Part shown: positions 23,206-64,000 of the stretch, piece after piece
Layout: every line of letters begins with the position of its first letter
How positions within the stretch are numbered: position 1 is the stretch's first letter
Assembly (NCBI GenBank): GCA_028753945.1
Contig: JAPNXP010000006.1
Span: forward strand, 372,001 to 436,000
Source of the DNA: Hexactinellida sp. DTS-2022
Lineage: Eukaryota > Porifera > Hexactinellida
Reading direction: 5' to 3'
DNA: 64,000 bases
Made by a program: the position numbers and the translations under genes
The notes under the pieces: generated by a model
The model's input: only the letters and a program-made list of their open reading frames with translations
The model's database searches: none
What the model was told of the DNA's origin: nothing

Positions 23206-23212
23206 ATCCATA

Positions 23213-25198: not shown

Positions 25199-25231
25199 AT
25201 CTAAATTAGAATATTATAGCTAACTATTCCA

Positions 25232-25789: not shown

Positions 25790-25799
25790 CATTCATGTT

Positions 25800-26060: not shown

Positions 26061-26234
26061 TTTGAAAAGGTGTTAAAATTCCATCATATATGGATCCATA
26101 TAGGAACATTTATATTATAATCTATAACTCAATAGTAATTCAAATTATATTTTCCAGGTAAACTACTAATACTTAGTATACTGTCCAAAAACGCTATTAA
26201 ACTTGAAATCAATTAACTTTTTTAACGAATGGGC

Positions 26235-26258
26235 TATCACAATAAGCGAAGTCGACTG
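26235..26258. mobile_element. F3 end fragment
   Basis: ATAAGCGAAGTCGACTGTA only. Confidence 0.5.
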
Positions 26259-26351
26259 TATTAAATTTCCGTTATACAATTTGTTAGTAAATACGAGTAA
26301 TTAGTAACCTAAGTATTCTATCCTAACAATTCTACAAAAAACACAAAATAA

Positions 26352-28122
26352 TCAATTAATATACGGTAAAGATTCATGTATTATAATTTCGCCTTTTTCG
26401 TCGAAATTTTTCGGGCCTTTTCCATCCTCTCTAACTTTGGTTTGTGGAAATGGGTAACTAACAATGATTGGGTTATCGAGTGCGTATTCTATTGTTTGTT
26501 CTATTTCTGTTTCTTTTATGAATTGTTCGGCTTTCCTGAATTCTTCTTTCAGAATATCTTCAATCGACTTTTCTTTATTTATTTTTTCAATTTCTAGAAT
26601 TGGTTTCTGTTCCGCATTAATTATTTCCGCATTTTTCAGTTTTAACATTTCAGCATTCTAAATATAGAATAGTAGACTCTGTTAATAAGAACACCAGGGG
26701 ACCGTCGTAATATGTTCGTATTATCCGGAGTCACTTGCATGCATTTGTATAGGCTAGGGGAATTAAACCTTGTACTCATTAACAGATATTTCCCTTATCC
26801 GTGTTCCTACTAACGAGAGTCTACTGTATATTAAACATCTATGTATTCACCCAAGGTACCTAAAAAATGTTCCCTTTATAAAGGTGTTACTTAATATGTA
26901 TATAGTGTCAGTTCCTATATGAAACACCTTTTTATAGGAAACACTTTTCAGATACAAACTATCTTACTTCTCTCTTTTCCTTCTGTTTTTGATTAACCTC
27001 CTCTGCATATTTAATGGCCGGACCGAATACATTATCAAAACTGAATTTCTCGTCGTATAATCTCTGTTTTTCTTTCTCTTTTATCAACTGTTAATAAAAT
27101 ATAAATATTAAAGGGTTACTTAACTTACTTATATATCGGTTAACACCTTTTCAATATAAAACCAGGCTTCGCAAAGGTGATTTTTGATGTTAAAATGACC
27201 TTACTAGTATAAAGGTGTTGGTCGTTATATAAGTAATTCCTTAATTATTATAATTAGGAAGTTAACTAAACCATTGATAGTTCCCTTAATCAATTATTGC
27301 AAATAAATTTAACTCGCATTATATATTAAAACTCAAATATATATATGGACCCATAAATATATAAGAAATTACTTATATAGAGCTGAGCTTTGTAGAGTTC
27401 AGTTTTTCACTATGTGTATTCATGCACTGAGAAAGGTCAGTTTTTTTCCAGAGTTTGAAATTGACCTTTAGAAAGTAAGCCTGGGCTTTTAGTATGGGAA
27501 AAAATCTGAACTCTACAAAGCTCAGCTCTATATAAGGATTCCCAATATATAATTACTATAGTAATTTCACTCATGGTAGTAAAATTCATTGTATAATTAA
27601 TCATCCATTGTTGTTGTATTCAATGTTTTAAGAATCCATGGTTATAAACATCATACATCAGAGTAAATACCAAGGGTAATACGGAAATGGTTCGATTTTT
27701 TCAAAATAGGAAATAGTTCGAACAAAATAGGAAATAGTTCAACTTTCATTTTGTATTGTTGGACCATGGATTCAAGCCGGGATTTTCTCATATCCATGGT
27801 GCAGCAACACTAACAATTTCGAACTATTTCCTATTTTGGTTTTTCGAACCATTTCCAGCATACCAATACCATGTCTGGTTGCTATAGTAACTAAATAATG
27901 AACAGTTCCTATTGTAACTATGATTACCATTTTCCGATTTTCGACTTTACATTCCTGTCTAACTTTCCAAACATCTTTTCTGTAATCTCTCCAAATCTGA
28001 TCTTCTGCTGGTTTTAATTTAAAACTCACATTCCGATATAGAATCTCGTTACTAAGCAACGGGGTTGTCAGTCTGGAATGTATGTTTGAAGTTTGTTTAC
28101 TAATCTTTATTAATCTAAACAT
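26352..28122 (-). CDS. MRPS26: Mitochondrial small-subunit ribosomal protein mS26-like (three exons)
   Basis: Exons, in coding order: 28122-27928, 27087-26968, 26657-26352. All three junctions are phase 0 and give 206 aa, the length of human MRPS26 (205). The N-terminus is basic with few acids (MFRLIKISKQTSNIHSRL), consistent with a mitochondrial presequence. The middle is charged helix (LIKEKEKQRLYDEKFSFDNV). The C-terminal exon has EEFRKAEQFIKETEIEQTIE and ALDNP, resembling the conserved FIT-x-ENLE-x-I-x-x-AL segment of mS26. The identification rests on this segment, the length and the architecture. Similarity elsewhere is weak, so another coiled-coil mitochondrial protein remains possible. 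Intron 1 holds an inverted-repeat element and a GAGCTGA MITE; intron 2 holds an F2 MITE. It shares a 35-bp spacer with the ING gene. Confidence 0.62.
26669..26828. mobile_element. F2 MITE
   Basis: TAGTAGACTCTGTTAATAAG to ACGAGAGTCTACTGTA with ACACCAGGGGACCGTCG at left. Intron 2 of the mS26-like gene. Confidence 0.8.
27124..27235. mobile_element. Short MITE, ACTTATATA...TATATAAGT ends
   Basis: TTACTTATATATCGGTTAAC at left pairs with GTCGTTATATAAGTAATT at right. The interior CCAGGCTTCGCAAAGGTGAT recurs at 9410-9450 and 63750-63775. Confidence 0.6.
27371..27535. mobile_element. GAGCTGA-ended MITE, inverted copy
   Basis: ATATAGAGCTGAGCTTTGTA to TACAAAGCTCAGCTCTATAT. Reverse orientation relative to 10218-10379. 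Confidence 0.82.
27684..27857. mobile_element. Inverted-repeat element GGAAATGGTTCG
   Basis: Arms of about 40 bp: GGAAATGGTTCGATTTTTTC at left, GGTTTTTCGAACCATTTCC at right, both with AAATAGGAAATAGTTCGAA next to them. It overlaps a spurious extension of the first exon frame. Confidence 0.75.
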
Positions 28123-28157
28123 TCTTAAAGGAATATAGTAATATTAGCTTTGTAGCA
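28123..28157. promoter_or_regulatory. 35-bp divergent start-codon spacer
   Basis: The two start codons (27 kb side minus, 28.1 kb side plus) are 35 bp apart. Leaders of the two genes must therefore overlap or start within each other's gene. A shared bidirectional promoter is the simple reading (inference). Confidence 0.6.
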
Positions 28158-30861
28158 ATGACAACACAAATATTGGAAAACTATCTCGATAGTAAGTTAG
28201 TTATTAAATTGTATTATTGAACTATGGAGTAATCTACTAAATTGGAACAAATATAAATATGTGTGTTCACTGTGTTACAGTAAAACCTCCAAAAGTTAAC
28301 ACCTTCAAGAAATGAACAATTCATGCGACTTGTTATTAGCCAAAAAATTAATTTTAATATCCATAGTTTTGTGATGATTTTGTTTCAGGTATCAGACATT
28401 TGCCTTCGGATTTGCAACGAAATTTCGGTTTAATGTCAGAATTGGATAAAAAGGCTGAAAGTAAGTTTAATAATTACAACACAACAGCAAGTAAATAAAC
28501 AAACAACTAAACAACAACAAACAAAATAAACAAAAAACTATCAAACTAACAAAACAACAACAAACAACAAAAACTAATAAACAAACAACTACATTATTTA
28601 GAACTCCAGAATAACATAACAGAATTAGCTGACAGTTACAAACAAGATGCAAAAACAATGGATGATAAATCGAAAGCTAAAATATTAAAACAAATAAAAC
28701 AGCATTACAACACTATTAGGAAGTGTTCGGATGACAAAGTAGAATTAGCATACAGTACATACGAGTTGGTAAGTGTGTTTACACATTAAAACACCTAGCT
28801 ATTAACAAAATGGACTATGGATAACTTATGTAACGCAAATTCCCAAAATTTAGAATTTTTGTCACTTTATCTGAAATTACATAACATAATTACAAAAAGT
28901 TGCTGTTAATTAATCGATCGAACGAACATGCTTTCATTTTAGCTAAAATATAATTATCCCTTGATTTTGTTTATTGTTGCTATTGTTGTTGTTGTTGTTG
29001 TTTACAGGTAGATCAACATATCAGACATTTAGACAGTGACTTAAATCGCTACGAACAAACACTAAAAAAAAAAGACAACACATTTAGTACAGAAAGCACA
29101 AGTAAGTACTATAATACTAATGAACCATGGATATATGTACTCAATTAAAATGTAATAACTAACATTTTAACTGAGTTTATTAATATCGACTCCGCTTAAT
29201 AGAGTCACCTCGGGACCAAGTTATTTTTAAAAAATGCCAAACTGTCATTCCGTCTATAAATCCTGTGATATTTTTACCCCATTAAGCTGAGAAATCTATT
29301 TACCGGTGGCTTTATTAAGCGGAGTTGACTGTATGTATATGGATAGTATATTTGTATTTGTATAATCTAGCTTCTAAGAAGAGATCGATGTCAGAATCGA
29401 GTCGACCCAGCAAACACAGTAGAACCGCATCAGATGTTTCAGTTAGAAGCAATTCCAGGTATCATTACACCATGGATAATAACGGATTATAAAATAGCCA
29501 AATATACAGTGGATGCCGGTTATAAGAACATCGTCGGGAACTGCATATAATGTTCTTATAAAGGATTATAAAATAATCAATTATACACAATTGTTTTGGT
29601 TACAATATATAGTATACAGTGGTGTTCGCGAAATAACAAGTCGCATTTTGTATGAAATTTGCTTGCTAATAAGCGAATTTGCTATTACGCGAACACCTTT
29701 TGTTAATATCAGTATTAATACAGTTAGTAACTAACTTAAGTTTTAAAATTATTGTTTTGTTTAATAAATGAATACAGTTATTCCATATATAGCATATCCA
29801 TGGTTAATAATACAGTTTGTGGTATGTTTAGATCAGAAGACGGAGATCGAGATTCTAAGAACGGAGATCTGGATATGCCAGTAGACCCGAATGAACCTAC
29901 CTACTGCATTTGCGATAAGGTAAGTATAAGTATAACCACCTTATAACCAGGGAGTGAAAAATTATGATTTTTATTTGATTTTTTCGGGAAATTTGAATGA
30001 ACTTACGTAACTCAAATTGTATAAATGCTGTTTTTACCATTCCTGGTTCAAACATGACTTAACAAATTCCAAGAAAATTAGACACCTTATGTCACAGTTT
30101 TTAACAAAATTATTATTCTAAAAATTTCTGAAAATTCTTATTCTAAAAATTTCTGAAATTTCTAAAAATTCTAAAAAATTTGTTTGTTAAAATTTTTGTT
30201 GTAATACCACTAAAGATGGTCTGTCACACTTGAATGGCCCCTTATTTTAGGTAGCAACGGGAAGGGCCAATGGTATGCTTACATGAGAATAAATTTGACT
30301 GTTTATAGCGGATATATTAAATGTTTTGTTTGTTTACTTTTCAATCTAGGTATCATATGGACAAATGATTGGCTGTGATAATTCAGATGTAAGTATCCAT
30401 GATTTAATTCATTAAATATATGTATTCTATTTATCCATGGTTAATTAAATACATTACAGTAAACTCCCGTTTAACGAAATGGAGATTTTCCCCCAGAGCA
30501 CTAAATGCATTAATTAATATCCGTTTATAACGAATATCCGGATATAACGAAGGGATTTACAGGTCCCAAGCACTTCGTTATAACGAGAGTTCACTGTATT
30601 ATATTTATCCACGGTTAATTAAATACAGTATTCTATTTATCCACGGTTAATTAAATACTATATTATTTTTTCCATTATTAATTAAATACTGTATTCTATT
30701 TATCCATGTTCCTTAGTGTACTATAGAATGGTTTCATTTTGAATGTGTCAGCTTAACTTCACAACCAACTGGTCAATGGTAAGTTTAATATTAACGGAAC
30801 AAGGTTGACAATTTATACTTTTAATTTGTATTTTAGGTTTTGTCCGAAATGTAGAAAATAA
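28158..30861 (+). CDS. ING4: ING4/ING5-type chromatin protein with PHD finger (nine exons)
   Basis: Subunit of MYST histone acetyltransferase complexes that reads H3K4me3. Exons: 28158-28191, 28389-28460, 28602-28768, 29008-29101, 29371-29458, 29832-29919, 30350-30388, 30717-30778, 30837-30861; total 669 nt, 222 aa (human ING4 249). The N-terminal ING helical domain is clear (ENYLDSIRHLPSDLQRNFGL, CSDDKVELAYSTYELVDQHI). A short basic/serine linker (KKRSMSESSRPSKHSR) serves as nuclear localisation region. The acidic DLDMPVDPNEPTYC precedes a complete C4HC3 PHD finger, CICDKVSYGQMIGCDN then CTIEWFHFECV and WFCPKCRK. The Y and M-x-GCD residues of the H3K4me3 pocket are present. The stop follows at once after the PHD, so there is no PIP2-binding tail as in ING1/2. 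ING4 and ING5 cannot be separated here. Confidence 0.94.
28276..28345. mobile_element. F10 fragment
   Basis: TACAGTAAAACCTCCAAAAG and CACCTTCAAGAAATGAAC. ING intron 1. Confidence 0.55.
29183..29333. mobile_element. F3 MITE
   Basis: TATCGACTCCGCTTAATAG to AAGCGGAGTTGACTGTA. ING intron 4. Confidence 0.8.
29504..29697. mobile_element. F4 fragment followed by F7 fragment
   Basis: TACAGTGGATGCCGGTTATA (29504-29560) and TACAGTGGTGTTCGCG ... TACGCGAACACC (29614-29697). ING intron 5. Confidence 0.7.
30395..30715. repeat. TTTATCCAYGGTTAATTAAATAC minisatellite split by an F5 MITE
   Basis: About five units of roughly 32 bp fill ING intron 7, with the F5 element 30455-30598 inserted after the first. 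The last unit abuts the exon 8 acceptor. Confidence 0.8.
30455..30598. mobile_element. F5 MITE
   Basis: TACAGTAAACTCCCGTTTAA to TAACGAGAGTTCACTGTA with CAGGTCCCAAGCACTTCG. Confidence 0.88.
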
Positions 30862-31249
30862 AGATTATTATACTCTGAATTAAAACTACTATCTGTATGT
30901 GATTATGTTCCTATTAAAATATCCTATTTCCGTTATATAATATTTTTATTGTAATTATAATTACAGAGAGAGGATAAATTAAATTAAAAATCAAACTTTA
31001 TTTATTACAAATATTGTAATCTTAATTGTAATAATATTATTGTATTATGTATTGCACTTAGTTAATATTTATATCCTATTTTAAATTAAAGATATTTTTA
31101 ATTTTCTGACCGAAAAAGATCTTAGTAATAATGCTTGGCAAAAAGGGCATAAATCACATCAAATATTTGAATTTGTTTTGTTCGTTTGCAATATTGGTTC
31201 CCTGGATTATCAAGGAATAATTGATAAATTTTACTTGTTAGTAACGGTA

Positions 31250-31533
31250 ATAAAAGCCCATAGAAACTAAGCAAAAAACTGTAGACCAAAAGCCCCTACT
31301 GTTTATTGGTAATAGTATGAAAATCAAGAAAACCTGGTCTAGAAATAGACGGTCTACATATAAGTGATATCAATATTCAATTTTGTTATAACAAATACAG
31401 TAGAACCTCGTTAGTACGATTACTATTTCAGTCCCCTTCAAAGCCTTTTCAATATAAATGATATTGTTAATACGAAATCCGGATAAGGCGAACTCATTTT
31501 GACGGTCCCCTGGTGTTCGTACTAACGAGGTTC
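31250..31533. mobile_element. GTAGACGG element (31250-31366) and F1 MITE (31396-31533)
   Basis: First: AAAAGCCCATAGAAACT, CTGTAGACCAAAAGCCCC and AGACGGTCTACATATAAGT. Second: TACAGTAGAACCTCGTTAG to CTAACGAGGTTC, last bases lost. Confidence 0.7.
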
Positions 31534-31793
31534 ATATCTTCCCTCCCAAAAAGTGACAAAACCTAATTAAATTTAATTAGAAAGTTGTCCTAGTATACCA
31601 ACATTATTCGAGGAAATATTTGCTAGCTAATTCTACTATTCTTGGTAGAAAGTACAAATTAATTTTGTACTAGAAAGTTAAATTACATTTCAAATTTGTT
31701 TACGAATTAATAGATACAGATTATAATTAGCAAACATAATATTTCTACAAAATTAATTTCGGTCAATATTAGTAGATTGACGAGTGTTGATTA

Positions 31794-31950
31794 TACAGTA
31801 GACTTGGTTAATAGGAATATGGATAAGGCGATATATCGGTTAAGGAGTACAAGGTTTAATTCCCCTAGGCTATACAAATGCATTAAAGTGACTCCAGTTA
31901 ATACGAACATATTTCGACGGTCCCCTGGTGTTCCTATTAATGAAAGTATA
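31794..31950. mobile_element. F2 MITE
   Basis: TACAGTAGACTTGGTTAATA to TTCCTATTAATGAAAGTATA with CGGTCCCCTGGTGTTCC. Confidence 0.8.
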
Positions 31951-32558
31951 TTATATATATTTTATTCAATAATCAACAAAAAAGTATATCTATAGATATA
32001 CTTAACATTTCTCACAATGTAGATATAATATACTTATTAAAAAATTGCAATTTCGCCCAATAAAATATTGTTAGTTGAAGGGTCGAAATATAAATTAACC
32101 ACTATCACACACACAATTTATCGGTCAAGTAAACATAATTAAATATACTACCTTTAAAACTACGTATAAAACTTATAAAAATAAACTTAATTTCCAACTA
32201 TGTCGAAGTAATCGTATCTGATTATGCAATTATTGCAGTAATATTACTGTAGTTGCATTTCAGTATAATTGTTTAGAGCATTGTATTATTAGGGCGTGAT
32301 TATAATTACCTAAATACGTTATAAGAATTGGAATTCTGTCAAATCAATTTACTAATAATTCAAGGAATTTGATACACCCCTATATACTCACATCTGCTAA
32401 CAAGTAATCCTGATATTATTATTTGTATCTACTATTATATTATCTGTTAATATAATCATCTTTAGGAATTCTATTAGGAGAAGTTTGTAAGCTAAAATAT
32501 GTACAAAACGACCTTGTTTAGTGTCAAAATATGAGTATACTAATTTCATGAAACTACA

Positions 32559-32721
32559 TACAGTAGACACTAGTTAATAGGAAATATCTATTAAGGAGTA
32601 CAAGGGTTAATTCCCCTAGCCTATACAAATGCATGCAAGTGACTCCGGTTAATACGAATTTCCGGATAATACGAACATATTTTACGGTCCCCTGGTGTTT
32701 CTATTAACAGAGTCTACTGTA
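32559..32721. mobile_element. F2 MITE
   Basis: TACAGTAGACACTAGTTAAT to AACAGAGTCTACTGTA. Confidence 0.85.
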
Positions 32722-33699
32722 TATCGAAATAATACTTTAATTAATGGAATTGCTGATTATATTTATGAAAATAGTTGTATTTTGGCGCGTGACGCACAAA
32801 AATATAAATTTACGCAATTAAATCAAACTAGAAAGTACAGTTTTGTAATCTCTTGTAAAATTCTGCGTATTTACAGAAATTAAACAAACTTTCCTGAAAT
32901 TTAACTGAAATACTATAGTAGTCAATCTAATGAATAGAAACTATGTATGTTACATGGCAACTGATTATGATAAAATGAATGTTACATATGATACAATTTA
33001 TCCATAAATGAATTCTGTGGCCATTTTTCAAATCTAAAATTCATATAGTTAATTAATACTTACTACATATCCTATAATGATTATATTATCCACGTAATCA
33101 AATGTAAAGCATTCCTATACCCAAATTAATCTCCAAAAGAATTAATCTTGATCGTAAGTTTAATTAAACAACATTAGTATCTCATTTCATTTCTAAGAAA
33201 ATAGTATTCAATTATAACTATTCATAGAAGCAATAATAAACCGCTTCAAATGAAATAAGTTTGTAACATTATTGTTACCAGGTGCATCTATTTTGTGGAT
33301 AATAACTTTGTTTGAATCTAATATTAAAAACTGTTATTAAGTGTAAATTATAAATCAAAGAGAGTTAATTTTAATGATATTGCAAAAAATGTTAGGTAAG
33401 TTTGCCTGGTGATAATTATTAATTATTTAAAATTTAAAATTCTCTTTGATAATTATGTCTTAATATTACATAAGATATTAGTTAGAAAAATTAATTTCTA
33501 GTTACTATCACTCCAGGAGAAATAGGGAAATTTATAAAATAGATATTCTCGGAAATTTTTGTCCGCTTTCTTAATTTCTATTAATAGATGTTACTAAGCA
33601 TTAAAAAGCATTTAAATTGACGGATAAAGTGTATGCGTTTTACTAACGAGAGTCTACTGTGTGTAGAATTTTGATAGATTTTTCTAGAAAATTATAGAA

Positions 33700-33876
33700 T
33701 ACAGTAGAACTTCGTTAGTATGAACACCAGGGGACCGTCGAAATGTGTTCGCCTTATCCGGAATTTGTATTAACCAATATCATTTGTATTGAAAATACTT
33801 TGAAGGGACTGAAATAGTGTTCATAATAACCGGAATTTCGTATTAACCGTGTTCCTACTAACGATGTTCTACTGTA
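33700..33876. mobile_element. F1 MITE, full length
   Basis: TACAGTAGAACTTCGTTAGT to AACGATGTTCTACTGTA. An F2 tail lies at 33613-33661 and an F1 start at 33880. Confidence 0.88.
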
Positions 33877-34005
33877 ATATACAGTATAACCTCGTTAATA
33901 CGAACACGGTTAAGTGAGAATTTTTACTTCAAATTTTAGTAAATTTAGAATTTATTTTTGATAATGTTATACATCTTTTTTATACAATTTAAGGCACTGG
34001 TAAAG

Positions 34006-34143
34006 TACAATGCAACTTAGATAAACCGAATACGTTTGGCTCGTCAAATGTTATTCCATAATTACTTTAAATTCTCTGAATTGTAGATAAACCGAAATTG
34101 TTTGACTGGTACCAACGAGTTCGAATAATAAAGTTGCACTGTA
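34006..34143. mobile_element. MITE with TACARTGCAACTT ends
   Basis: TACAATGCAACTTAGATAAA and AATAAAGTTGCACTGTA. A further TA-flanked family, once in this window. Confidence 0.65.
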
Positions 34144-34423
34144 TAAATTACTTCATTCATTCATCATTTTTATTGACGAACTAACATCTATAATTGATGC
34201 CATACAATAAATCAATTAGGAATATCACGATTCACAGATGTGCATCTGAATAAAGATATAATCTTGTTAGTTAATGATATCACTATTATATAGGCTAATT
34301 TGCATATTTATAACCACTTTTGTAGAGTTTAATATTGTAATCAGTTATAACGTTTCGTTTATATTAAATTGATCAGCTGTTAATTCAATTATATAGGCAG
34401 CTGGATTATATTAAACTTACAAG

Positions 34424-34574
34424 TACAGTAGAACCTCGTTAGTATGACCGTCAAAAAATGAGTTCGCCTTATCCATAATTCGTAGTAATCAATATTATTT
34501 GTATCGAAAAAGCTTTGAAGGGACTGAAATAGTGTTCGTATTAACCGGAATTTCGTGTAAACGAGGTTCTACTA
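34424..34574. mobile_element. F1 MITE
   Basis: TACAGTAGAACCTCGTTAG to AACGAGGTTCTACTATA. Confidence 0.82.
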
Positions 34575-34799
34575 TAATCAGTTCTTTCAATAAAAATTTA
34601 GGAAAATTATTGTGATAAATATACAAATTGGAAGTAAACATAATTTCCTTAATGTTTAGTTATAGTTCTGATTCCAATAAATACACAGAAATTACAACTT
34701 AGTTCCATTTAATATATTTCGGTTGCAGCAATCAGGAACAGAAAAGAAGTGAAAATAGACAAACATTTTTTCCAAAAATAATGCTTTTTGAATTGGAAA

Positions 34800-34988
34800 T
34801 ACAGTCGACTCCGCTTAATAGAGTCACCTCGGGACCAGGTTGCTTTGATCCGATTAAGCGGAGAAATATATTAACCGAAAATATTTTAAGCCAAACTGTC
34901 ATTCCGTCCTATAAATCCTGTAAAATTTTGACTCCATTAAGCGGAGAAATCTATTAACCGGAGGCTCTATTAAGCAGAGTATACTGTA
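34800..34988. mobile_element. F3 MITE, long form
   Basis: TACAGTCGACTCCGCTTAAT to TTAAGCAGAGTATACTGTA with CCGTCCTATAAATCCTG in the middle. Confidence 0.88.
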
Positions 34989-35188
34989 ATATCAGGAAAT
35001 GATCTATTTCCAATTAATGGGCAACAGTACGTTATATGTGCCATTAGGGATGATAATGTTGTATAATAGTTTGTTTCATTATGTCAGTCAGATATAAGCA
35101 ATTAAAATGAAACGTGGTTAATTTAAAATTAGAAAAATTAGAAATTGTTTATGGATTTCACAGCTAACTACTTTTTCTTAGCCCATTT

Positions 35189-35338
35189 TATACACGGTTA
35201 ATACGAAATTCCGGTTAATACGATCACTATTTCAGTCCCTTTCAAAGCCTTTTCAATACAAATTATATTTATTATACGATTTCCGGATAAAGCGAACGCA
35301 TTTTTACTGTGTGTTCCTACTAACGAGGTTATACTGCA
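35189..35338. mobile_element. F1 MITE, left end lost
   Basis: CACGGTTAATACGAAATTCC to CTAACGAGGTTATACTG. Confidence 0.7.
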
Positions 35339-36533
35339 CAAAGTTTGTCTGATTATTTAATTATTAATTATACAAGAATACTTACATTCAAATATGCACT
35401 AACCAGTTTATCATTATTCCACTATTTATAAACAGCTGTTAAAATATAAATAATAAACGACCCGAATTTATTTATTTTACTATGTAAGCAAATTGAACAA
35501 TCAAGAATCCTCGTTGTATAAACTATAAAATTTGGGCATCTACAACCCTGTAATTAACCAAGTTTAAAATTTGCAAACAAACCAATTTCATCCACAAACA
35601 ATTCCATAGCAAAGAACATTAATTATTCATATTTAGTTAGAAGATTGTCTTTGTGAAAATAGGAATATTATTAACAAAAAGCAACGAAACATCTTACAAA
35701 GAATTTAACCGATTTCCGCTCAAATTGCAATGATTAATCATATTTTAGTGCAAATTAATTAAAATAATTTAATTCTCCTTTTCTGTACAGCTGTACGTAT
35801 GTATGTTCCTTATCCGAATTTCAATTATTTCAATGCTTAATTATTTTAATTTCAATGCTTTGAGAGAATATAATTTCCCGTAAACAACAACAACAACAAC
35901 AACAATAACAATATATATTATACACCACTACGTTTGCTTATCCATCAATAAATCTGGATAAACTTTATAGACACAAGTTATAAGTATAACCGTATTGAAT
36001 TACTATTATTCTTAAAAATTGATAAAAATTACAAAACAATAGAAGTTCACTAAGTTTAGTGTTCAATAGATTACACATGTATCAATCTGGTCTGATAATA
36101 ATAATTGTGTCGCTAGACCACTTAAAACTCCATTAAAACCATATAATATAAAATGTAATTAATTTAAGAACTTCATTGACATTTGTTGAATATGTTTCTA
36201 TTGTATTAATTAATCTACGTAGGTTTTTAAAGCGATTTGAATAAATTATAAGTTTAATGTGAAACCTATTTATGTTACCTATTATACTATTACATCCCGC
36301 ATTATTCTGTTAACACATTTCAAAGGTTATAATTAGTAACTACGAAACTGTAGTGAGCTAGGATTTGAGTTTGAAAAAACGAAAAAGTAATTTGGATTCC
36401 ATTTGCAAAATTCAATTTTCCAATGATAACTTATAAAATCCTAAGATTTCCAGAAAAACAACAACATTTGTTTAAAGAAACATTTTACTTCAGTTTTATA
36501 TATAGCCCCCAATCGATAATTCTAACAAATATG

Positions 36534-36709
36534 TACAGTGAACTCCCGTTATAACCAAGTCGGATATAACGAATTAACCGCTTATAACGAAATGGAGATT
36601 TCCCCCAAAGCAATAAATGCATTAATTATTATCCGCTTATAACGAATATCCGGATATAACGAAGGGATTTACAGGTCCCAAGCACTTCGTTATAACAGAG
36701 TTGACTGTA
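36534..36709. mobile_element. F5 MITE, full length
   Basis: TACAGTGAACTCCCGTTATA to ATAACAGAGTTGACTGTA. The interior holds four TTATAACGAA repeats. Confidence 0.9.
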
Positions 36710-37254
36710 TAACGAATTCCGATAGAAATAGTGTTTCAATATAAATAATTGCATTCAATTCTATGATTATACATGAATCCCAAAGAAATCTTAAAAATAA
36801 ATAATCAAAAAATCAAAAAATGTTATGGACAAATCCCCATGACGTTATTCCTATGTAGACCAATTTTGGATAATAAGTATAATTTGGTTATAATTGTGAG
36901 GGATGTAAGTTATTCCTAAATTATAATAAGACAAGATATAGACAAAACACAGATTAATATAAGATTAAATTGATTTATATTTCAGACATAACAAGGTATC
37001 TTTATTGTAACTAACACATCTCAATTTACATTAACTCAATAGACAATATATCTAAAGTTATTGAGAAATACAAATAATGAAATGCGAAATTTAATCTCTT
37101 TACCAATCAAATCAGTGTTAAAACATGATAATTATATTATGTATACTCTTGTGAACTGATTGGTTAATCTGTGTTTAGCCAACGATTCAGTCTAAGGCAA
37201 ATTTAATAATTAAATTCATTTTCAAGAAGATAAGTTGAATCATACAAATATACA

Positions 37255-37398
37255 TACAGTATAACCTCGTTAGTAGGACACCAGGGGACCGCCAAAATGC
37301 ATTCGTCTTATTTGAAATTCGTATTAACCAATATTATTTGCATTGAAAGGCATTGAAGGGGATTGAAATAGTGTTCGTACTAACGAGGTTCTACTGAA
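37255..37398. mobile_element. F1 MITE
   Basis: TACAGTATAACCTCGTTAGT to CTAACGAGGTTCTACTG. Confidence 0.82.
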
Positions 37399-37551
37399 TA
37401 TCAATTTTGTTATGTACAACTTAATAATAAGGATGTTCTCTCCTGGTTCAAATGTTCAAATTTGAACCAAAAATTATTTCATAGGAATTATTTGTGATAA
37501 TTCTAAGTATAACAAAAAACCTAATAATACTCGATTAATGACAATATAAAC

Positions 37552-37714
37552 TACAGTTAAACACGGATAAGGGAAATATCGGTTAAGGAGTACAAGGTTT
37601 AATTCCCCTAGCCTATACAAATGCATGCAAGTGACTCCGGTTAATACGAATTCCGGATAATACTAACAACTTTCTACGGTCCCCTGGTGTTTCTATTAAC
37701 GAGAGTCTACTGTA
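37552..37714. mobile_element. F2 MITE
   Basis: TACAGTTAAACACGGATAAG to AACGAGAGTCTACTGTA; the left end is shortened. Confidence 0.82.
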
Positions 37715-37891
37715 TTCTACTGAGTCTACTATGCAATATTTAACGGACTTCCCTTTGGTTAACAGATAAGTGCAGATATCCGAGCTTCTAATTATCGGCT
37801 TCAAAACTATAAAATATCCAAACACAAACTATGCTAATTAAATTCAAAAATATAATTTAAGACTTCCAAATTTCTTCATTTAGATTCTAGA

Positions 37892-38082
37892 TACAGTCAG
37901 GTTCTTATTATAACATTAAAGGGACCAAAAATTGTGATCTTAATAGAGAGGCTTCATAATAAGCGAAACTTAATACAAACCATATGTAAGTTATTAAATT
38001 GGGACCATAGGGCTTGTTCATAATATAAAGTTTTCATATTAAGCAGACGTAAAATAGTTCACAATAAGCAGACCTGACTTTA
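37892..38082. mobile_element. F12 element
   Basis: TACAGTCAGGTTCTTATTAT to AATAAGCAGACCTGACT, the most complete F12 copy here. Confidence 0.72.
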
Positions 38083-38494
38083 TTCATAATAACAAGTCGA
38101 TTTATAGACCAATATACATATATAACTTATTAATAATTGTCAAATAATTGCAATTACTTTGTAAATGCATATTAAACCAATGCTTTGTAGTTCTCATAAG
38201 ATTAAATTAAATTATAAGAATGATTTATAATTGCATTATTTCACACATTAACGCGATACAAACCATATGTTTAACATCTGATACGAATCTATATAGCTCC
38301 AACTTCCTACGTTTATTGAATCCTACAATAGCGACAGAAGCCGGCACATGGTATTTGAGATAAAAGAAAATTACAAGAATACTCATTTGGGTATTTTAAT
38401 ATTTATATGGACTCTCAGTGGTACGTGAAATTGTTCTTTAAAACAGTTGATTGCACAAATATAACAATTTGGAATTTGCATTAGGATATATTAA

Positions 38495-38822
38495 TACAGT
38501 AGAACCTCGTTAGTACGAATACCAGGGGACCGTCAAAATGAATTCGCCTTATCTGGAATTCGTATTAACAAGTGTAATTTATATTGAAAAGGCTTTGAAG
38601 GTGACTGAAATAGTGTGCAGTTTAAACGGAATTTAGCGTTACGTAACGTTTGACGGCCAAATACAAGGAATTCCTATTGGAGTATGATTTTTAGAAAATA
38701 TTAATTAGGAGCGCGAAAATTTGGAATCCTCTCCTATACCATAACATTAATTTGTGATTTACAAGTATGAAAATTGGGTCAGACCAGGATTAGGAGCGTA
38801 TTTACAAATGGCTGTATAAAAC
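38495..38822. mobile_element. F1 MITE followed by family S element
   Basis: TACAGTAGAACCTCGTTAG starts F1; its right end runs out near 38636. Family S is at about 38672-38822 (AGGAGCGCGAAAATTTGGAA to GGCTGTATAAAACA) without its 5' hairpin. Confidence 0.65.
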
Positions 38823-39263
38823 ATGTGAATCTCAATTAATAGTAATAGAGTTTGAAGGGCAACATTACCAACATATAGTTAATATGGATATTCGAGGATC
38901 TAATTAATTGAATCGACTGTTTATGAGAAAACAATTGGGTTATGATTGTGTCTAGCCAGAATCAAATTATTTATTGTTTGTAAATAAATATATTTATGCG
39001 ATTAAACGAATTAAATGATACTTTCACTACATAAATATTTGTATTTGTGTCTCTCTATAATTAATTACCACAAAAAACTTTCGAAAGTAACCAAAAATAT
39101 GTTTAATTATCTTCTACATATTTGAGGCTGACTAGAAATTTTATTTCTAACTACACAAAATGTACTTTCAGCAAAATATACACATATTTTAAACCAACAA
39201 ACCAGGGGACATAAAATATAAAACATACTGTTTTGTCCAATAATTTACTGGATTGCAACAAAC

Positions 39264-39480
39264 CAGTGGTTCCCAACCTGACCTGGGGTCCACAATATGT
39301 ATTACTGTATTACTTAAGGAAATTCCAACTTAATTACGTCAGGATTTATAAATTCTATAGATAGTATAGCGATCCACAAGATCACAAAATCTGTATTACA
39401 GTCAATGGGAGGGGATCCACATAATATGTATAATATTTACTATAGGGGGGTCCACGGTTGAAAAAGGTTGGGAATCGCTG
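39264..39480. mobile_element. hAT-like CAGTGGTTCCCAACCT element
   Basis: CAGTGGTTCCCAACCTGACC at left and AAAGGTTGGGAATCGCTG at right, with GGTCCAC words facing each other. Target duplication not clear. Confidence 0.75.
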
Positions 39481-39540
39481 GTCTAAACAGTTGATAGAAA
39501 GATTGACTAATATTAGTTAAGAAGTTGGCGAAAACTTAAA

Positions 39541-39683
39541 TACTCGTTATAACGAAGTCCAAGTAATTACCACTTAGTTTAATTCGTTATAAGCGGAGTA
39601 ATATGAATTACTTTATCCGTCTGGGAATATATATAAATTCGTTATAAGTATTACGTTTATAACCAAATTCGAGTTCACTATAA
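39541..39683. mobile_element. F5-related element
   Basis: TACTCGTTATAACGAAGTCC to ACCAAATTCGAGTTCACTAT; diverged. Confidence 0.6.
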
Positions 39684-40070
39684 TAATACAAATAATTCGA
39701 CAAACTTCGAATTGAGATTCTAGAAAAGTAATTTTGGATTTCGATAAAACTTTATCTCCGGATAAACCATAAATGTGTCAGAGTTGACACTAAAGAATGT
39801 ATTGCGCAATAAATGTATTGGGAAATATGTCTCGAAACAAGGTTGGATAAAAAATGCAAATTAGTTAAAGTTCAATATAAATTTAAATATTTAAAAAGAA
39901 CTTCAATTCAATTGGAAATAAACATTTTGGGGAATTTAAACACTTTTACGAGTGTCTATACAATTGCTATATAATTGCTATATAATCCTAATAGCAATAA
40001 TAGAATAGTTTGAATGCCAACATAATGACAAAAAATCAGAATCAGTCAATCAAATTATTCTACAGAAATT

Positions 40071-44706: not shown

Positions 44707-45963
44707 TCATGAAAATATTTGCAATGCAGATGAATGGTTATCAGAGACACAAACTAATTTGGTTTTGTAGAGGATAGCAATGCCAAAAGCGTCGTAAAAC
44801 TTTCTAGCTTGATTCCCATACCGTCCTACCGTGTGTAGGAGGTCTCCTGCTGGAGAGAATACCTTGATATCGTTAGCAGAGTCGCTGATGACTATGTTAT
44901 TGAGTCCGTCTAAACAGAAGAAATATGATATTGAAACTTGCATTCCTATTTTGAATCCTCTAGTAACTAGGGAGCGGGACTTCTCTCCTGATAGTGTAAA
45001 CACGTGGATACAGGGATTGTCTTCACGGCTTAACACAAACATTTCATTTCTTGTGAACTTAACATCAACAGGTTCTGTCATAGTTTGATGTTGTAGCGAG
45101 CCTTGGAAAGCTAGATCTGTGGACAGGATTTGGATTCTGTTGTTGTTTGTGTCTGGCACGTAGAGGCGTTGATTGGGAGAGATGGCGAGTTGTCCCGGAT
45201 AATTGAATTCTTCATTTCCAGATCCTTGCTTCCCTACTCGCTTTACCATTTTGAGATCTGACAGCTTGAATTGGAAGATAGCGTGTTGTGTTATGTCCGT
45301 GACATAAATGCTATCCTGATGGATCAATATACCCCATAGACTTATCAGGTGTTGATGTCCGAATTTGTTGATATATTCTCCTGTCTCAGAGAATATTTGG
45401 ATTCGACTGTTGCTCATATCCGCCACATAAATGTGTCCGGATTTTGTATCGATTGAGACACCTCTTGGGCAGTTAAACTCTCCAGGAGCTGATCCTTGTT
45501 CCCCAACAGCAACAATGGGCTGTTGGAATGTGGCATAGTTTGGTATCGCTGGCACAGGAGGGATGGGAGGAGTCTCGAGTTGTAGAATCTCTCCCAGACG
45601 GGAGATACGTTCCTCTAGGTCCCGTGTGTCGCAGAGGTAGCTCACTTCTTGAGGTGGTGCTGCCACTTGCAATTCTGCCATTTCCGCCTCCAAATCTCTG
45701 ACCATTCTTGTTTGCATTGTATGGAGCTTATTGTGCTTTATTTGTGTTTCTAGAAATTCTTTAGTTTCTGCCATCTCTTGTTGCATTTGTTGTCCCGCCA
45801 CCCGATTGGCTCTGGTTTCCTCCCGTCTGTCCCTTAAGTCGGTCAACAGCTGGTGCCTTCTCTGCTCGAGAGAGCGTATCAACCTGTCTATCGATTCATT
45901 GATTTGTATCGACACGGGGTCTACGATTGGCACTGGGATTAGCTCAGGTATTTGAGTCGCCAT
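44707..45963 (-). CDS. Coiled coil plus NHL-repeat propeller protein, third copy (418 aa)
   Basis: Intronless and colinear with the gene at 20300. The N-terminus (MATQIPELIPVPIVDPVSIQ) and much of the coiled coil are nearly identical; differences cluster in the middle of the coil (GQQMQQEMAETKEFLETQIK against QQQMQQQITETRAFLEGQMT) and at the last blade. Six NHL blades at about 150-418. The 3' flank shows little similarity to the + strand copies while the 5' flank does. No RING or B-box. It lies 816 bp downstream of USP19's last exon on the same strand. Role unknown. Confidence 0.9.
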   Translation of the reverse strand: MATQIPELIPVPIVDPVSIQINESIDRLIRSLEQRRHQLLTDLRDRREETRANRVAGQQMQQEMAETKEFLETQIKHNKLHTMQTRMVRDLEAEMAELQVAAPPQEVSYLCDTRDLEERISRLGEILQLETPPIPPVPAIPNYATFQQPIVAVGEQGSAPGEFNCPRGVSIDTKSGHIYVADMSNSRIQIFSETGEYINKFGHQHLISLWGILIHQDSIYVTDITQHAIFQFKLSDLKMVKRVGKQGSGNEEFNYPGQLAISPNQRLYVPDTNNNRIQILSTDLAFQGSLQHQTMTEPVDVKFTRNEMFVLSREDNPCIHVFTLSGEKSRSLVTRGFKIGMQVSISYFFCLDGLNNIVISDSANDIKVFSPAGDLLHTVGRYGNQARKFYDAFGIAILYKTKLVCVSDNHSSALQIFS

Positions 45964-46330
45964 TTGTGTTTTTTGAAATTTATTTGAGTTTGTTTGTTAG
46001 TTTCAGTTTAATCTTAATTTATAGTTCTATTCAATAAATACTCTCATTTCTGAGTAACACAGTTAATATTAGTTGTGTTTGTAAGACAATACTTTAACTC
46101 TGAACTTATTGCATATTTAGACTAGTGGCTGTATTGTGGTTGTTGTTTCAATTAAATAATTAATTTCTGCAATTCCATCAAATTCCTTTGAACCACTAGA
46201 TGAAATTAATCTACTCTTTAAGGTGTATTAGATTTTCAATAACAAAAGTTCGTTAGTTGAATTACTTGAATATATTTAAATTCCGATTAATACATACACA
46301 GTTCCTCAAGGGGAACAAATTTGGTGTCAA
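45964..46330 (-). promoter_or_regulatory. Conserved upstream region of NHL gene 3
   Basis: Inverted match to 17413-17845 and 19873-20299, with the TATAAAT box at 46018-46024. Similarity fades beyond GGAACAAATTTGG. Confidence 0.65.
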
Positions 46331-58792: not shown

Positions 58793-58909
58793 AAAAATCT
58801 AAAACTACAGCTGTGCCGACAGCATATTATTCTGGAGGCACGATATTTAGTTGATTGATAGTGCCTCCCTAGGAAATTACTGTCTGCACAGCTGTAATTT
58901 TAGATTTTT
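58793..58909. mobile_element. Family H hairpin element
   Basis: AAAAATCTAAAACTACAGCT and AGCTGTAATTTTAGATTTTT arms with GCCGACAGCAT and TGGAGGCAC/GTGCCTCC. Uninterrupted, about 117 bp. Confidence 0.88.
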
Positions 58910-59565
58910 CGTAATGTCATCATCACCATAAGTGCTAAACCCTTCACAAAGATGTTCGGTAGGTAACAATTATTTATATCAGCGATTCCCAAGTTCAAAA
59001 CCACTTTATAATTACTACAATTATAGAAGTATTCGATAGCACATTGTTTGATATTTGATACGATAATACATCTCGTATACAAATCTAATTTGGTACAGTC
59101 AAAATTGTTTGCAAATCTAGTTATTTGAGATGTACCGTTGAATAAAAATGAATGAATTCTAGCTTGGAATATAATTAGAAAGGAATATTTCTAAATTGAT
59201 AATAATAGATACACAAGTCCAATTTAAGACAAAATTCGAATAAAAATAAGAAGTTAGAAGTTAGCTAAAGATCCATCCTATAGGAGAATAATAAAGAAAG
59301 TTTTTTGTAAACCTATTGTAATTTCTGTAGGAATTTATCTACATTAGCTATCAGAATCACTAAATTCAAGTGTTTCTTTAAGTCTGTTTCTCATACAAAT
59401 TCCTTCGTAAATTCTGAACAAACATACAAAAACAATCATTTGAATATATAAAATAGATACACAAAGAATTTAGTGAGTAGAAATTACTAACTAGCTAAGC
59501 TAAAATATCAAATAATAAAGTTTGGTTTATGGTATAACCTAACTATCGAACAAACAACATTGTTA

Positions 59566-60636
59566 TTAATGTTTAAATGCTTGGATAAATTCGTCAACAT
59601 CTTTCTCAGAATAATTTAGCGATTTCCTGAGGAAGGTTTTGCATACAGCCTCTGCTAGCTTAGTTGCCATTCTATTTCTGGTTGCCTCACTCATGTCTGG
59701 TTCCGATTCTTGTAATGACAAAAGATTTTCCTGAAAAGCATCATCGTAAATTCCCTTGGCTTTAATGGCATCCTGTAATGCATTAGTGCCTATATTCATT
59801 TTCTGTGGACTCTGTACAGTTGGTTCGGAATATTTTTTCCACATATCTAAAGTAGTATCGATGCTCATTGATAGATTCCCAATGGATGTATGGTGTGACT
59901 GGAATAGACTCAGTATCTCATTATTATTGAGTGCCTCAGATAGGAACTTAGCTTCCTGATATTTATAGCCTCTTTCTTTCCCTTGAGACTTTACATAATA
60001 ATATGCCATCTTACTGATAATACCTATTATTTTAGCTGAAGTATGACCTACTACACTTGTTGCAAAAACAAGACCACAAGGTGTTAAACCTGTAAATATA
60101 GCCAAAAGTTCTCCATGGATTCCTATATTTGCTCCTGCCAGGAGCGATTCAAAAGTTAATGTGGCAACTACACCGCTACTAACTGAGCCACTGCAAATAG
60201 CTTTCTGTTGGAATAGTCCAGTATTCTGTATTTCCGAAACAGGTTTGGATAAAAGGGCATAGTCTGACTCAATCAAATTCTGGAAATCACTGCAGTAATT
60301 ATCATTGCATGACTGTTTCATTCCCCCAAATCGTTGTTGATATGTTTGTTCTATCATTTGAGCACATCTCATTTTCGCAAACAGATTAGTATAAGATTCA
60401 TATCCACTTTCAATTTCCTTTTTCAACTTAGTTAGTTGCTCCTTCATTTTGACAACATTGATGGATTTCCTTTCCCCTACTGTCCAGTCAGTAATACTTT
60501 CCCAATAAGTTCTGCCAGTTTCCAGATCCTCAAACAAATTCACACAATAGTGTATATTTTTCAACAAATTTCTGTAGGCCGACAATGTGTCAGCTTTGTT
60601 GACAGTTTCAGAGAACTCTACATAGCTAGCCATCAA
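59566..60636 (-). CDS. Unknown helical protein with long hydrophobic segment (356 aa)
   Basis: Intronless. Not recognised; paralogue of the gene at 62501. Residues 15-100 are helical and charged (DTLSAYRNLLKNIHYCVNLF, KEQLTKLKKEIESGYESY). Residues about 146-213 are almost uncharged and rich in G, A, I, L, S (GVVATLTFESLLAG, LLAIFTGLTPCGLVFATSVV), long enough for two or three membrane-crossing helices with a short central H/E turn. Residues 280-350 are the part best conserved with the paralogue (SLQESEPDMSEATRNRMATK, CKTFLRKSLNYSEKDVDEFI). No signal peptide: the start is charged and lies outside the hydrophobic block. The layout (amphipathic coils around a buried hydrophobic hairpin) resembles colicin-like or APOL-like membrane-inserting proteins only in outline. 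The start has a second Met (MM), and the frame opens just upstream, so the N-terminus is likely right. Confidence 0.8.
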   Translation of the reverse strand: MMASYVEFSETVNKADTLSAYRNLLKNIHYCVNLFEDLETGRTYWESITDWTVGERKSINVVKMKEQLTKLKKEIESGYESYTNLFAKMRCAQMIEQTYQQRFGGMKQSCNDNYCSDFQNLIESDYALLSKPVSEIQNTGLFQQKAICSGSVSSGVVATLTFESLLAGANIGIHGELLAIFTGLTPCGLVFATSVVGHTSAKIIGIISKMAYYYVKSQGKERGYKYQEAKFLSEALNNNEILSLFQSHHTSIGNLSMSIDTTLDMWKKYSEPTVQSPQKMNIGTNALQDAIKAKGIYDDAFQENLLSLQESEPDMSEATRNRMATKLAEAVCKTFLRKSLNYSEKDVDEFIQAFKH

Positions 60637-62500
60637 TCAAGCCTATTATAGTGAACTATCATAAGACATTGGTATTCTTTTACAGATTAATGAAATCCTA
60701 CTATTAACTATTAATCCTACTACGTATTAACTATTAATCCTACTATTAACTATTAAACGCGTAACCGGTCACCGGTGTACTCATCACCACTTGTATGTCC
60801 AACAACTAATATGTTGATGTTTTAATCAATTCTCAAACTTTGTAAAGAAATTAGAGAATTTAGCAAAATTCAACCAAATTTACGATTTTCCTTTACAGAC
60901 AAATAAAATAAAATCTAAAACCAGGCGCATAATGTTAAAACACGTGGATTTGTATATCAAAGTGATTATAAAAGAATTGGTAACTTATCTTGCAATCTGG
61001 AAACTGGTAATCAAAAACTTCTAACTCGCAATTCAATAATGAAACTACTGAAAATATATGCGTATGTAAGTGTTGACCTGTTTATATAAACAAATCGCGC
61101 ATATTTACTGTTTTGAATGAAACCATGGGACCCAGTAACTATAACAAAAGCAATATGAAATCGCTACTAATGAGTTCAGGATGTTTCAATTACGTAAACA
61201 CTAAACGTCTTGCTATAACAAGATTAGGTTACACAGACAATACAACAACCACATAACCTTACCAGTGCATTAATTAAAGCTATCAGGTGTCTGACATAAG
61301 AGTGTTATTGGAACTAACTCTACATACCACAGATAAACACACATAGCACATATCTATCTACCGACATACGCACTAGGTACCGTAGTCATAGCAACAGATA
61401 GGTATGCAGCTGTATGTTGTTGGTTAAGTCAGGTAATGTAATTCTTAGAAGAGAGCTCTGATATCTCTTGGTTACATAAACCTGCAAGAAATGCAGTATA
61501 TTAATATACAGATGTATTATACCAGCGATTCCCAACCTTTTAAATCCGTGGACCCCCTATAGCAAATATTAGACTATAATGTGGACCCCTTCTATTGACC
61601 GTAATACCGATTTTAAGATCTTGTGGACCCCAGGTTGGGAACCACTATACAATATTATAGAGTTTATAAATCCTGACGTAATTTAGTTGGAATTCCTTTA
61701 GTTTATTCGTCCAAGATTTGTTCTAAAATTACAGAATTGTATCCAATCCAAACCCTGAATTAAACCTGTATATTAGAATGCACCCAGTGTCCTAATCTAA
61801 ATCCAGTTTATAATCTACAGAATAGCATTAGTGTGCTCAATCGATGCAATCGATAATTTAACATGCTATCAAACGGAGACAGTCACTGATCAAAATATCT
61901 GAGTAGTCAACAAATAACAGTAACAAACAAATTGAGTTACCTAGTGCAGTATAACCAGGAAAGATTATCCAATGGGATTACTTGGCCCTAGACAAACGGG
62001 GCTCCTGAATGCTAGACGAAGGCATACTAATACTATACTGAATACAAGACGAAGGCAAGCCTCTTGTTGAAATATTATTGTTATTAGTTATCAGTAGTTT
62101 CGACCAAGGCAAGAGGATGGTTAATGCAACTTTAACTGTTGCATTATTGAGAAGAATTATGAATTTAAATGTATTTTAACAAGATATCTGAACTTAATTA
62201 TTCTCTGGACTTAAGGCGGATAACGTGTAAAAGAGCCATCTAAGTGGGTCTCATTGAATATTCAGTCAAGGGCCTCGGAATTGCTTAATCCGGCACTGAG
62301 TAACAGCATAACAGCATTGCAATATAAGGAGTCATTAAATGAAAGCACTGAACTAATGCAATAAGTCTGCTAGTATAAATAAGAAAATAATTCTATAATA
62401 TAACTAACGAACTAACAACAATTTTTTCTACCTAACCTAGTTCACCACATAATTGAGACTGTTAATTAATATTAAATAACAATCAATTAATTGACTAGGA
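60637..62500. other. Divergent promoter region between the unknown paralogues
   Basis: 1.9 kb with no coding frame. Short ATTAACTATTAATCCTACT repeats at 60700-60755, and the hAT-like element at 61523-61646. Regulatory sites for both genes are expected here but none is recognised. Confidence 0.5.
61523..61646. mobile_element. hAT-like CAGCGATTCCCAACCT element
   Basis: CAGCGATTCCCAACCTTTTA at left, CCCAGGTTGGGAACCACTA at right, with GTGGACCCC words. Same family as 39264-39480. Confidence 0.75.
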
Positions 62501-63511
62501 ATGGCAAGAAACGACCAATTAACTGATACTCTTTCAGAAGGTAACATAATGAGTGCTTACAGTGACCTGCTGGTTGATATAAATGAATGTTTGAATCTAT
62601 TAAAAAGTCTCGAAAGGGACAGGACTTGGGGGGAACTTGTTACTGATTGGGCAGCAGGGGACAGAGGCAAACTGAATCTACCAAGAATGCAAAATCAACT
62701 GGATGAGATGAAAGAGGAAATTGAAAAAGGAATTAAAGTAACCACTAAACTATTTATGAAATTAAACACTCTCAAATTAATAGAACAATCTCGTGATCAC
62801 AAATCGTTAACAACTGGAGACGAAAACCCAGATGAAGTGAAAAAAATGTCGTTCAGTGATTATTTGAAAAAACAATTCGAATCACTGAATAAAATTTTCG
62901 AAAAATTAAAAAATACGGGCTTTCTAGAACCTAAAAAAATTGTTGTTGACGTTAACGACCCTGTTTTGTCGATATTAATATATATTAAAGATATAGGCTC
63001 TGACAGAGGAATAAAATACAAAGAGCTCCAATTCCTAAGTGACTCACTCAATAAACCTCGGGCCTTAGCTTTATTTCAAGCTTGCCATAGTTCATTGCAA
63101 AATGTAATCGTTGAACTAGATTATATGTTAGAAACTTCCAAAGAAATTGTGTTAGCTAAAGCAAATCAGCCGAATATTTCTAACTTTTACTACCCGACTT
63201 TTCAGGGTAATTCGGGCGCTTGTTTCTTACCTGTAACCCACCAAACTCCAGAGAACAAACACCAACTTACTGACGAAACTAGCACTCGAACTCAACCTAC
63301 GCTAGATGATGGAATAAAAGCAACGCGAATTTATGACAAAACTCTTCAGGAGAACATTCAATCACTGCAAGAATCAGAACCAGAAATGAATGAAGAAATG
63401 CGAAAAAGAATTGCAACTAAGTTAGCAGAGACCGCGTGCAAAACCTTCTTAAGGGAAAATCTAAATTATTCTGAGACAGAAGTTAATGAATACCTTGAAA
63501 AAATTATTTAG
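62501..63511 (+). CDS. Unknown helical protein, paralogue without hydrophobic segment (336 aa)
   Basis: Intronless. Colinear with 59566-60636 (minus): SAYSDLLVDINECLNLLKSL matches SAYRNLLKNIHYCVNLFEDL, NTGFLEPK matches NTGLFQQK, GSDRGIKYKELQFLSDSLN matches GKERGYKYQEAKFLSEALN, and LQESEPEMNEEMRKRIATKL matches LQESEPDMSEATRNRMATKL. Between NTG and RGIKY it is about 53 residues shorter, missing the hydrophobic block; it has only VLSILIYI there. It is longer by a T/Q/N-rich linker at about 230-275. No signal peptide or cysteine pattern. It would be a soluble, mostly helical protein. Head-to-head with its paralogue across 1.86 kb. Function unknown. Confidence 0.8.
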   Translation: MARNDQLTDTLSEGNIMSAYSDLLVDINECLNLLKSLERDRTWGELVTDWAAGDRGKLNLPRMQNQLDEMKEEIEKGIKVTTKLFMKLNTLKLIEQSRDHKSLTTGDENPDEVKKMSFSDYLKKQFESLNKIFEKLKNTGFLEPKKIVVDVNDPVLSILIYIKDIGSDRGIKYKELQFLSDSLNKPRALALFQACHSSLQNVIVELDYMLETSKEIVLAKANQPNISNFYYPTFQGNSGACFLPVTHQTPENKHQLTDETSTRTQPTLDDGIKATRIYDKTLQENIQSLQESEPEMNEEMRKRIATKLAETACKTFLRENLNYSETEVNEYLEKII

Positions 63512-63660: not shown

Positions 63661-63961
63661 TTTAAACTCTATAACTATCTAGTATTATAATGTTTTATTC
63701 CATGTTTTCTACTTATATTTATTTATTTATTAATAAAATAATGGTCTTCCCGGTTCGCAAAGGTGACTTTTTGATGTTATAAATGACCTTGCTACTGCGT
63801 GAAAATTACTTTACAAACGTGTTGCTGATATACAAAAATAAATTATCTAAAATTCTAGAATAATCCATGTGACATACGTAGTTGATTCAGTTCAGTATGT
63901 TGCTTATTTGGGAGCCAAGGTATATCAATAAACACCTTTATAGTGATGATTACTTGAAGAA
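63661..63961. other. 3' flank with dispersed TTCGCAAAGGTGA repeat
   Basis: CCGGTTCGCAAAGGTGACTT and CGTGTTGCTGATATAC (63750-63830) resemble 9388-9495 and 27140-27190. No gene seen. Confidence 0.5.
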
Positions 63962-64000
63962 AAATCTAAAATTACAGCTGTGCCGATGGCATTTTCTTTT
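63962..64000. mobile_element. Family H element, cut by window end
   Basis: AAATCTAAAATTACAGCTGT and GCCGATGGCATTTTCTTTT match the first arm of family H. Confidence 0.75.

Follow-up and report, generated by a model that had tools for sequence, protein, structure and literature searches.

A Small Family of Helical Proteins With and Without an Uncharged Block in a Hexactinellid Sponge Genome

Introduction

Toward the end of a 64,000-nucleotide stretch from Hexactinellida sp. DTS-2022 (GenBank assembly GCA_028753945.1, contig JAPNXP010000006.1, positions 372,001 to 436,000; hereafter the window), two related genes lie head to head, and a nearly uncharged segment of one is missing from the other. 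What does the presence of such a segment in one paralogue, and its absence from the other, imply for the two proteins? A sequence-only reading of the locus had suggested that one partner could insert into membranes, with the other staying soluble, for example as its antagonist. The analysis described here places both genes in a small birth-and-death family rather than in a single pair.

The animal origin of the DNA is apparent from the neighboring genes, which encode a villin headpiece and gelsolin repeat, a clathrin-adaptor-type small chain, a RhoGEF, an ion channel and NHL repeats. Three similar uninterrupted frames are seen in the window (17783-18733, 20249-21559, and 44707-45996). One of them (20300-21556) was tested and encodes NHL repeats together with an N-terminal part that by eye resembles a coiled coil; its Pfam list contained neither RING nor B-box. 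Of ten cysteine-protease loci inspected, the four with the active-site motif searched for have the usual cysteine, and no silicatein was seen. Xenoturbella bocki was rejected as the source, as the paper on its genome reports 43% GC compared with 33% in the window.

Genes A and B Are Diverged Paralogues

Gene A (window 59569-60633, minus strand) carries the uncharged block and encodes 355 residues, while gene B (window 62501-63508, plus strand) has no block and encodes 336. Each is one uninterrupted frame, identified as an open reading frame and by alignment, and the two are transcribed outward, away from each other, just where the sequence-only reading had placed them. In a window of 33% GC, not one of 20000 draws from positions 23001-40000 gave 336 or 355 codons in a row without a stop. 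The length of 336 residues given earlier for B holds, but the 356 residues given for A do not, as the additional residue came from a TTG taken as start under table 11, and the true ATG gives 355. Counting codons from an upstream in-frame stop, the ATG comes second in gene A and third in gene B. As the stops lie so close upstream, and as the MAS start recurs in two further copies described below (C4 and C15c), both starts are probably right; untranslated first exons farther upstream are conceivable.

The start codons are separated by 1.86 kb (window 60637-62500, no strand, by inspection). Since this interval also holds a short element with inverted ends, a simple promoter shared by A and B is not evident. 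The element, seen by eye at about 61524-61650 (CCCAACCT ... GGTTGGGAA), resembles a small inverted-repeat transposon remnant. A second short repeat, around AATCTAAAATTACAGCTGTGCCGA, was noticed by eye in inverted arrangement near A (window about 58793-58912) and behind B (63960-64000), and apparently forms an array in L033 at about 6900-7560, judged by eye and via translations.

The paralogy of A and B is certain from their BLASTP match (E 1e-60, with 31% identity across 385 columns). The last 70 or so residues are the best conserved, as had been noted from the sequence: identity between the two proteins is 61% over A residues 285-351, and dN between the two genes is 0.24 over A residues 286-355 versus 0.52 in the first 100 residues. 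This C-terminal part is delimited by identity, dN and the structure model in A, where it has three helices (residues 283-355, window 59569-59787, minus strand), and by identity, alignment and model in B, where it is likewise helical (window 63302-63508, plus strand). In B it is preceded by a linker of about residues 221-267 (window 63161-63301, plus strand, from alignment and model), which is 34 alignment columns longer than that of A.

AlphaFold2 models of both proteins were built from two-sequence alignments, and their mean pLDDT is low (47.7 for A and 48.3 for B). The models are helical throughout, and both are too weak for a fold to be claimed. In the model of A the C-terminal part alone is confident, with ten-residue pLDDT means of 76-85 over residues 291-350, and pLDDT is below 50 across residues 101-229. 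The linker of B is modeled with very low confidence (pLDDT 24-32, residues 221-270). Ahead of the block the weak model of A has helices at residues 13-40, 60-102, and 111-136; the block follows the last of these and includes a helix at residues 185-217.

The Family in the Genome

The genome (112.4 Mb in 18 contigs) was searched with A, B, the copies C1a and D introduced here, and parts of these four. At least ten family loci were found, a count to be read as a lower bound, and six of the ten lie on contig C15, which also holds the window. A and B are thus no isolated pair but part of a small family, with further members of both kinds, with and without the block, in this genome; a dedicated pair of insertion partner and antagonist is hypothetical. 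Four of the ten loci are open from end to end, namely A, B, B′, and D. B′ (C15 from 436241) starts 241 bases past the window end and is 94% identical to B. D (C15 494968-496032) is intact and distant, and was first found with C1a at E 2.3e-5. A fifth copy, C15c (C15 1262130-1262738), is truncated: 238 codons are open from the ATG (in L012), and the C-terminal domain is missing. The remaining five are broken or fragments. C1a (C1 12516974-12518047) has a single in-frame TAA followed by a 276-codon open frame, C1b (C1 12520869-12522005) has several stops, C4 (contig C4 1255836-1256802) has two changes of frame, and fragments lie at C15 567236 and C1 12798975.

The surroundings of these loci show some features of their own. 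NHL genes stand beside two other family loci (L012 4665-5546 and L032 877-2160), a 375-codon frame that looks multi-pass-membrane-like by eye (L013 3494-4618, on C1) lies 0.3 kb from a family fragment, and frames that look gag-pol-like by eye (L010 8312-9900, on C1) adjoin the two C1 copies. The frame of B′ ends in 28 membrane-like residues (C15 437225-437308, L009 8225-8308; hydropathy 1.81). Their DNA is a pyrimidine-rich repeat (74% C/T), beside which a part of the linker region of B′ is present in duplicate. As the repeat is simply translated, the tail is probably an accident, and less probably a genuine gained tail anchor or an intron acceptor.

In an unrooted FastTree phylogeny of the N-terminal domain from seven sequences, A, C1a, and C1b are split from B, B′, C4, and C15c with a support of 0.92; the other supports are 0.89-0.99. 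The tree of the part after the block (eight sequences) places D beside the truncated C15c on long branches with a support of 0.68, and for this reason provides no root for the family. Homology of D in this part is evident nonetheless, with z of 8.5 to A, 7.8 to B, and 11.5 to C1a, and none of 500 shuffles reaching the score in each case. Ahead of the block D has no detectable similarity to the others (z -0.2 to 1.0, thus below 1.1). These comparisons suggest that the block and the C-terminal domain may form the conserved core, with an N-terminal domain that would be exchangeable or fast-changing. They also suggest that the block may be ancestral, a polarity taken from D, a single distant member.

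Constraint on the family is uneven. Between B and B′, dN is 0.028 and dS 0.048 over 328 codons (ratio 0.59; 21.5 versus 9.5 changes), so that constraint is weak at most, while A and B differ by a dN of 0.53 and a saturated dS of 1.42. The family has selected parts, yet its turnover is high. With five of the ten loci reduced to broken copies or fragments, and one more truncated, the B-type genes, as those lacking the block are called here, may be decaying rather than specialised. Loss of the block would then be a step toward loss of function, and A and B would form a pair with no joint role. The damage in C1b, C4, and the fragments at C15 567236 and C1 12798975, the stop in C1a, and the truncation of C15c all fit such decay, as do the B/B′ ratio and the end of B′, replaced by the translated repeat. 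However, B is open over 336 codons and retains its 61% identity to A residues 285-351, dN between A and B is below their dS, saturated as the latter is, and the block-less state is common to three loci (B, B′, and C15c). On balance, decay is a rather unlikely account of the B-type genes.

The Uncharged Block

The block of A, a candidate membrane-inserting segment, spans residues 144-215 (72 residues; window 59989-60204, minus strand) as delimited by alignment and charge count. Opposite it, B lacks 22 + 31 = 53 aligned columns, which agrees with the gap of about 53 residues reported from the sequence, and the flanks common to A and B are also as reported (NTG before and RG-x-KY after the gap). 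Six of the 72 residues are charged, and within residues 146-213, described earlier as almost uncharged, four were counted by eye. Eight loci span this region. The block is present in four of them, namely A, C1a, C1b, and D, and missing from three, namely B, B′, and C15c; in the eighth, C4, the frame is broken and the hydrophobic stretch that remains is shorter. The two fragments are omitted from this tally, as neither reaches the region.

By itself the block of A is not extraordinary, since B, with its polar linker, scores alike: a 64-residue window as charge-poor as that of A arose in 7 of 2000 shuffles, and one matching the most charge-poor window of B in 8 of 2000. The longest charge-free run of A was equaled in 255 of 2000 shuffles, and the 30-residue charge-free run in the linker of B in 1 of 2000. 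Lack of charge alone is therefore no marker of a membrane segment, as the polar linker of B is equally charge-poor. The stronger evidence comes from paralogues, and A's own block is the weakest. The blocks of C1a (70 residues) and D (65 residues) contain no charged residue at all, which no shuffle of 2000 matched in either case. Furthermore, hydropathy, unlike charge, does separate the block from B, with 19-residue maxima of 1.84 in A, 2.09 in C1a, and 2.23 in C1b versus 1.33 in B.

Place, length, and lack of charge of the block are kept across members, but its residues are not: block-to-block comparison gave no residue-level similarity in five pairs (z -0.9 to 1.4). This is expected if hydrophobicity alone is selected, as in a membrane segment. 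Spacing motifs of G, A, and S are not clearly enriched, their counts being reached by 84, 611, and 468 of 2000 shuffles in A, C1a, and D, respectively.

The block could instead be an intron that went unrecognised, and 16 GT-AG pairs in A would excise it in frame. Such pairs mean little, as they are equally available in C1a (12) and D (10). Moreover, A, C1a, and D each have a stop-free block of the same character, and stop-free runs of 65-72 codons were obtained in only 0.6 to 0.3% of 20000 nearby non-genic draws. Splicing-out of the block is unlikely, and we give an intron hardly any weight.

Three things speak for the membrane reading: the hydropathy of the block, the stronger blocks of the paralogues, and the fact that no soluble family was found to fit (see below). 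Insertion of the block-bearing, or A-type, proteins into a membrane is judged probable, and solubility of the B-type proteins, which would follow from loss of the block, more probable still. It is a separate matter whether insertion is conditional rather than permanent, and we lean slightly against the conditional form. A-type proteins could be ordinary, permanent membrane-hairpin proteins with a two-helix anchor and both ends cytosolic, the B-type proteins being duplicates that are soluble and have drifted into some unrelated function; triggered insertion and antagonism would then both be absent. The 65-70 charge-free residues of C1a and D offer sufficient length for anchors of an ordinary kind, no signal-peptide-like start was seen by eye, and A and B have diverged to 31% identity overall, all in keeping with such a history. 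On the other hand, the hydrophobicity of the block in A is no more than moderate by the standard of permanent anchors, and the N- and C-terminal domains kept on both kinds suggest shared surfaces. Permanent anchoring is a serious contender, if a doubtful one.

Searches for Known Families

The sequence-only reading had recognised no known family, and Pfam and NCBIfam likewise gave no match reaching a shown cut-off. Scattered weak Pfam matches fell under the curated cut-off where one was shown, the lowest E being 6.4e-4 (DivIVA, with C1a). In PHROGs, C1a matched phage tape-measure proteins (E 1.1e-4 and 4.3e-4) and D a family of unknown function (E 5.9e-4). In PADLOC, LeoBC was matched by C1a (E 9.2e-6) and D (0.0022), HamC by D (3e-4), and PDC-S06 by B (0.0022). 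These nominal matches coincide with extended helices or span the G/A-rich block and, LeoBC excepted, vary from member to member. They were therefore taken as composition and rejected as family identity. A likeness of B to a viral fusion protein among PDB sequences (E 0.0035 and 0.0059) was without profile-search support and was put down to coiled-coil chance. A profile of the part after the block gave a best E of 0.065 against PDB sequences, and the ten best rows were gasdermin-B constructs or isoforms. The gasdermin C-terminal domain gave no significant profile match, and the two alignments displayed (i-Evalue 0.6 and 0.25) were treated as chance.

No relatives were found in prokaryote genomes or phages searched with A, in plasmids searched with D, or in viral contigs searched with the post-block alignment and one pattern. 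With the model of A the best Foldseek E was 1.7, and the VIA-align matches listed for A and B were helical look-alikes (IncA, designed repeats, the TBK1 coiled coil, and the PNPase helical domain). Among the fold matches listed there was no ClyA-like or ApoL chain, an absence that excludes nothing. In Pfam, PDB, and further collections with few or no eukaryote proteins, no soluble family turned up in which the block could be accounted for as a buried core. A literature search of open-licence papers produced no description of such a family.

A Possible Division of Labor

The family plan would comprise an N-terminal helical domain, an optional uncharged G/A-rich block, a helical stretch, a flexible linker, and the C-terminal three-helix domain. 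In A-type proteins (A, C1a, C1b, and D) the block would most likely form two membrane helices or a hairpin and insert into a membrane. B-type proteins (B, B′, and C15c, with the block reduced in C4) would have lost it and stay soluble; their N-terminal surfaces would be kept, as would the C-terminal ones of B and B′. Their most economical role would be to bind the partners of A-type proteins, or the latter directly, thereby restraining or helping membrane action. As the terminal domains are common to both kinds, a regulatory partnership is the natural hypothesis, though on present evidence we are inclined to doubt a regulatory or partner role for the B-type proteins.

The proposal that one partner inserts and the other stays soluble is thus supported in part, by the charge-free blocks of C1a and D and by the split between block-bearing and block-poor members. 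The whole reading, in which membrane-inserting A-type proteins and soluble B-type derivatives act on the same partners, is offered tentatively, at somewhat less than an even chance. A stronger version, an animal system of two kinds in which membrane-inserting helical effectors are checked or assembled by soluble paralogues that shed the block, is distinctly unlikely; such a system, an endogenous effector with an antidote or partner of its own making, would match none of the known pore-forming families tested at a significant level in sequence. If A-type proteins do insert and B-type proteins bind them, an effector would have become its own regulator by losing a single segment. If not, what remains is a small family with birth-and-death turnover, censused in one genome.

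Comparison With Known Systems

Two known systems are closest in general plan. ApoL1 and ApoL2 are described as having an N-terminal amphipathic helix bundle, a predicted helix-loop-helix membrane segment, and a C-terminal leucine zipper region (PMC8316464). In the model of A the order of elements, compared with a four-helix N-terminal domain, a helix-loop-helix membrane segment, and a helical C-terminal region, fits loosely, at pLDDT below 50 for residues 101-229. However, block-less paralogues exist here, and the C-terminal domain was not similar in any search made. The ApoL family PF05461 was not among the Pfam-A matches listed for A, B, and D (up to E 10) and for six pieces taken from other copies (up to E 1), and its model was silent against the whole genome, as was, equally, the control.

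ClyA-like proteins (of the ClyA, XaxAB, and Nhe/Hbl type) have a helical frame with a mid-placed membrane-active region in which the members of a set differ (PMC6162564). A charge-poor block, with membrane activity predicted, occupies the corresponding position in A, C1a, C1b, and D. Membership would further call for a five-helix bundle of helices 1, 2, 3, 6, and 7 and for oligomeric pores. The family could even be a member or derivative of these alpha-pore-forming proteins, with differing membrane-active heads acting together. The gross plan is the same, in that the middle helices of a bundle flank a membrane-active region and the proteins come in sets of one to three components (PMC6162564), and helices 13-40, 60-102, and 111-136 precede the block in the weak model of A. 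Descent of this kind is nevertheless highly improbable, as no Pfam match exceeds a cut-off, no sequence or fold match rises above background, no signal peptide is seen by eye, and the genome is that of an animal. Ultimately, membership is claimed in neither the ApoL nor the ClyA-like group, and the likeness to both appears to be one of general plan.
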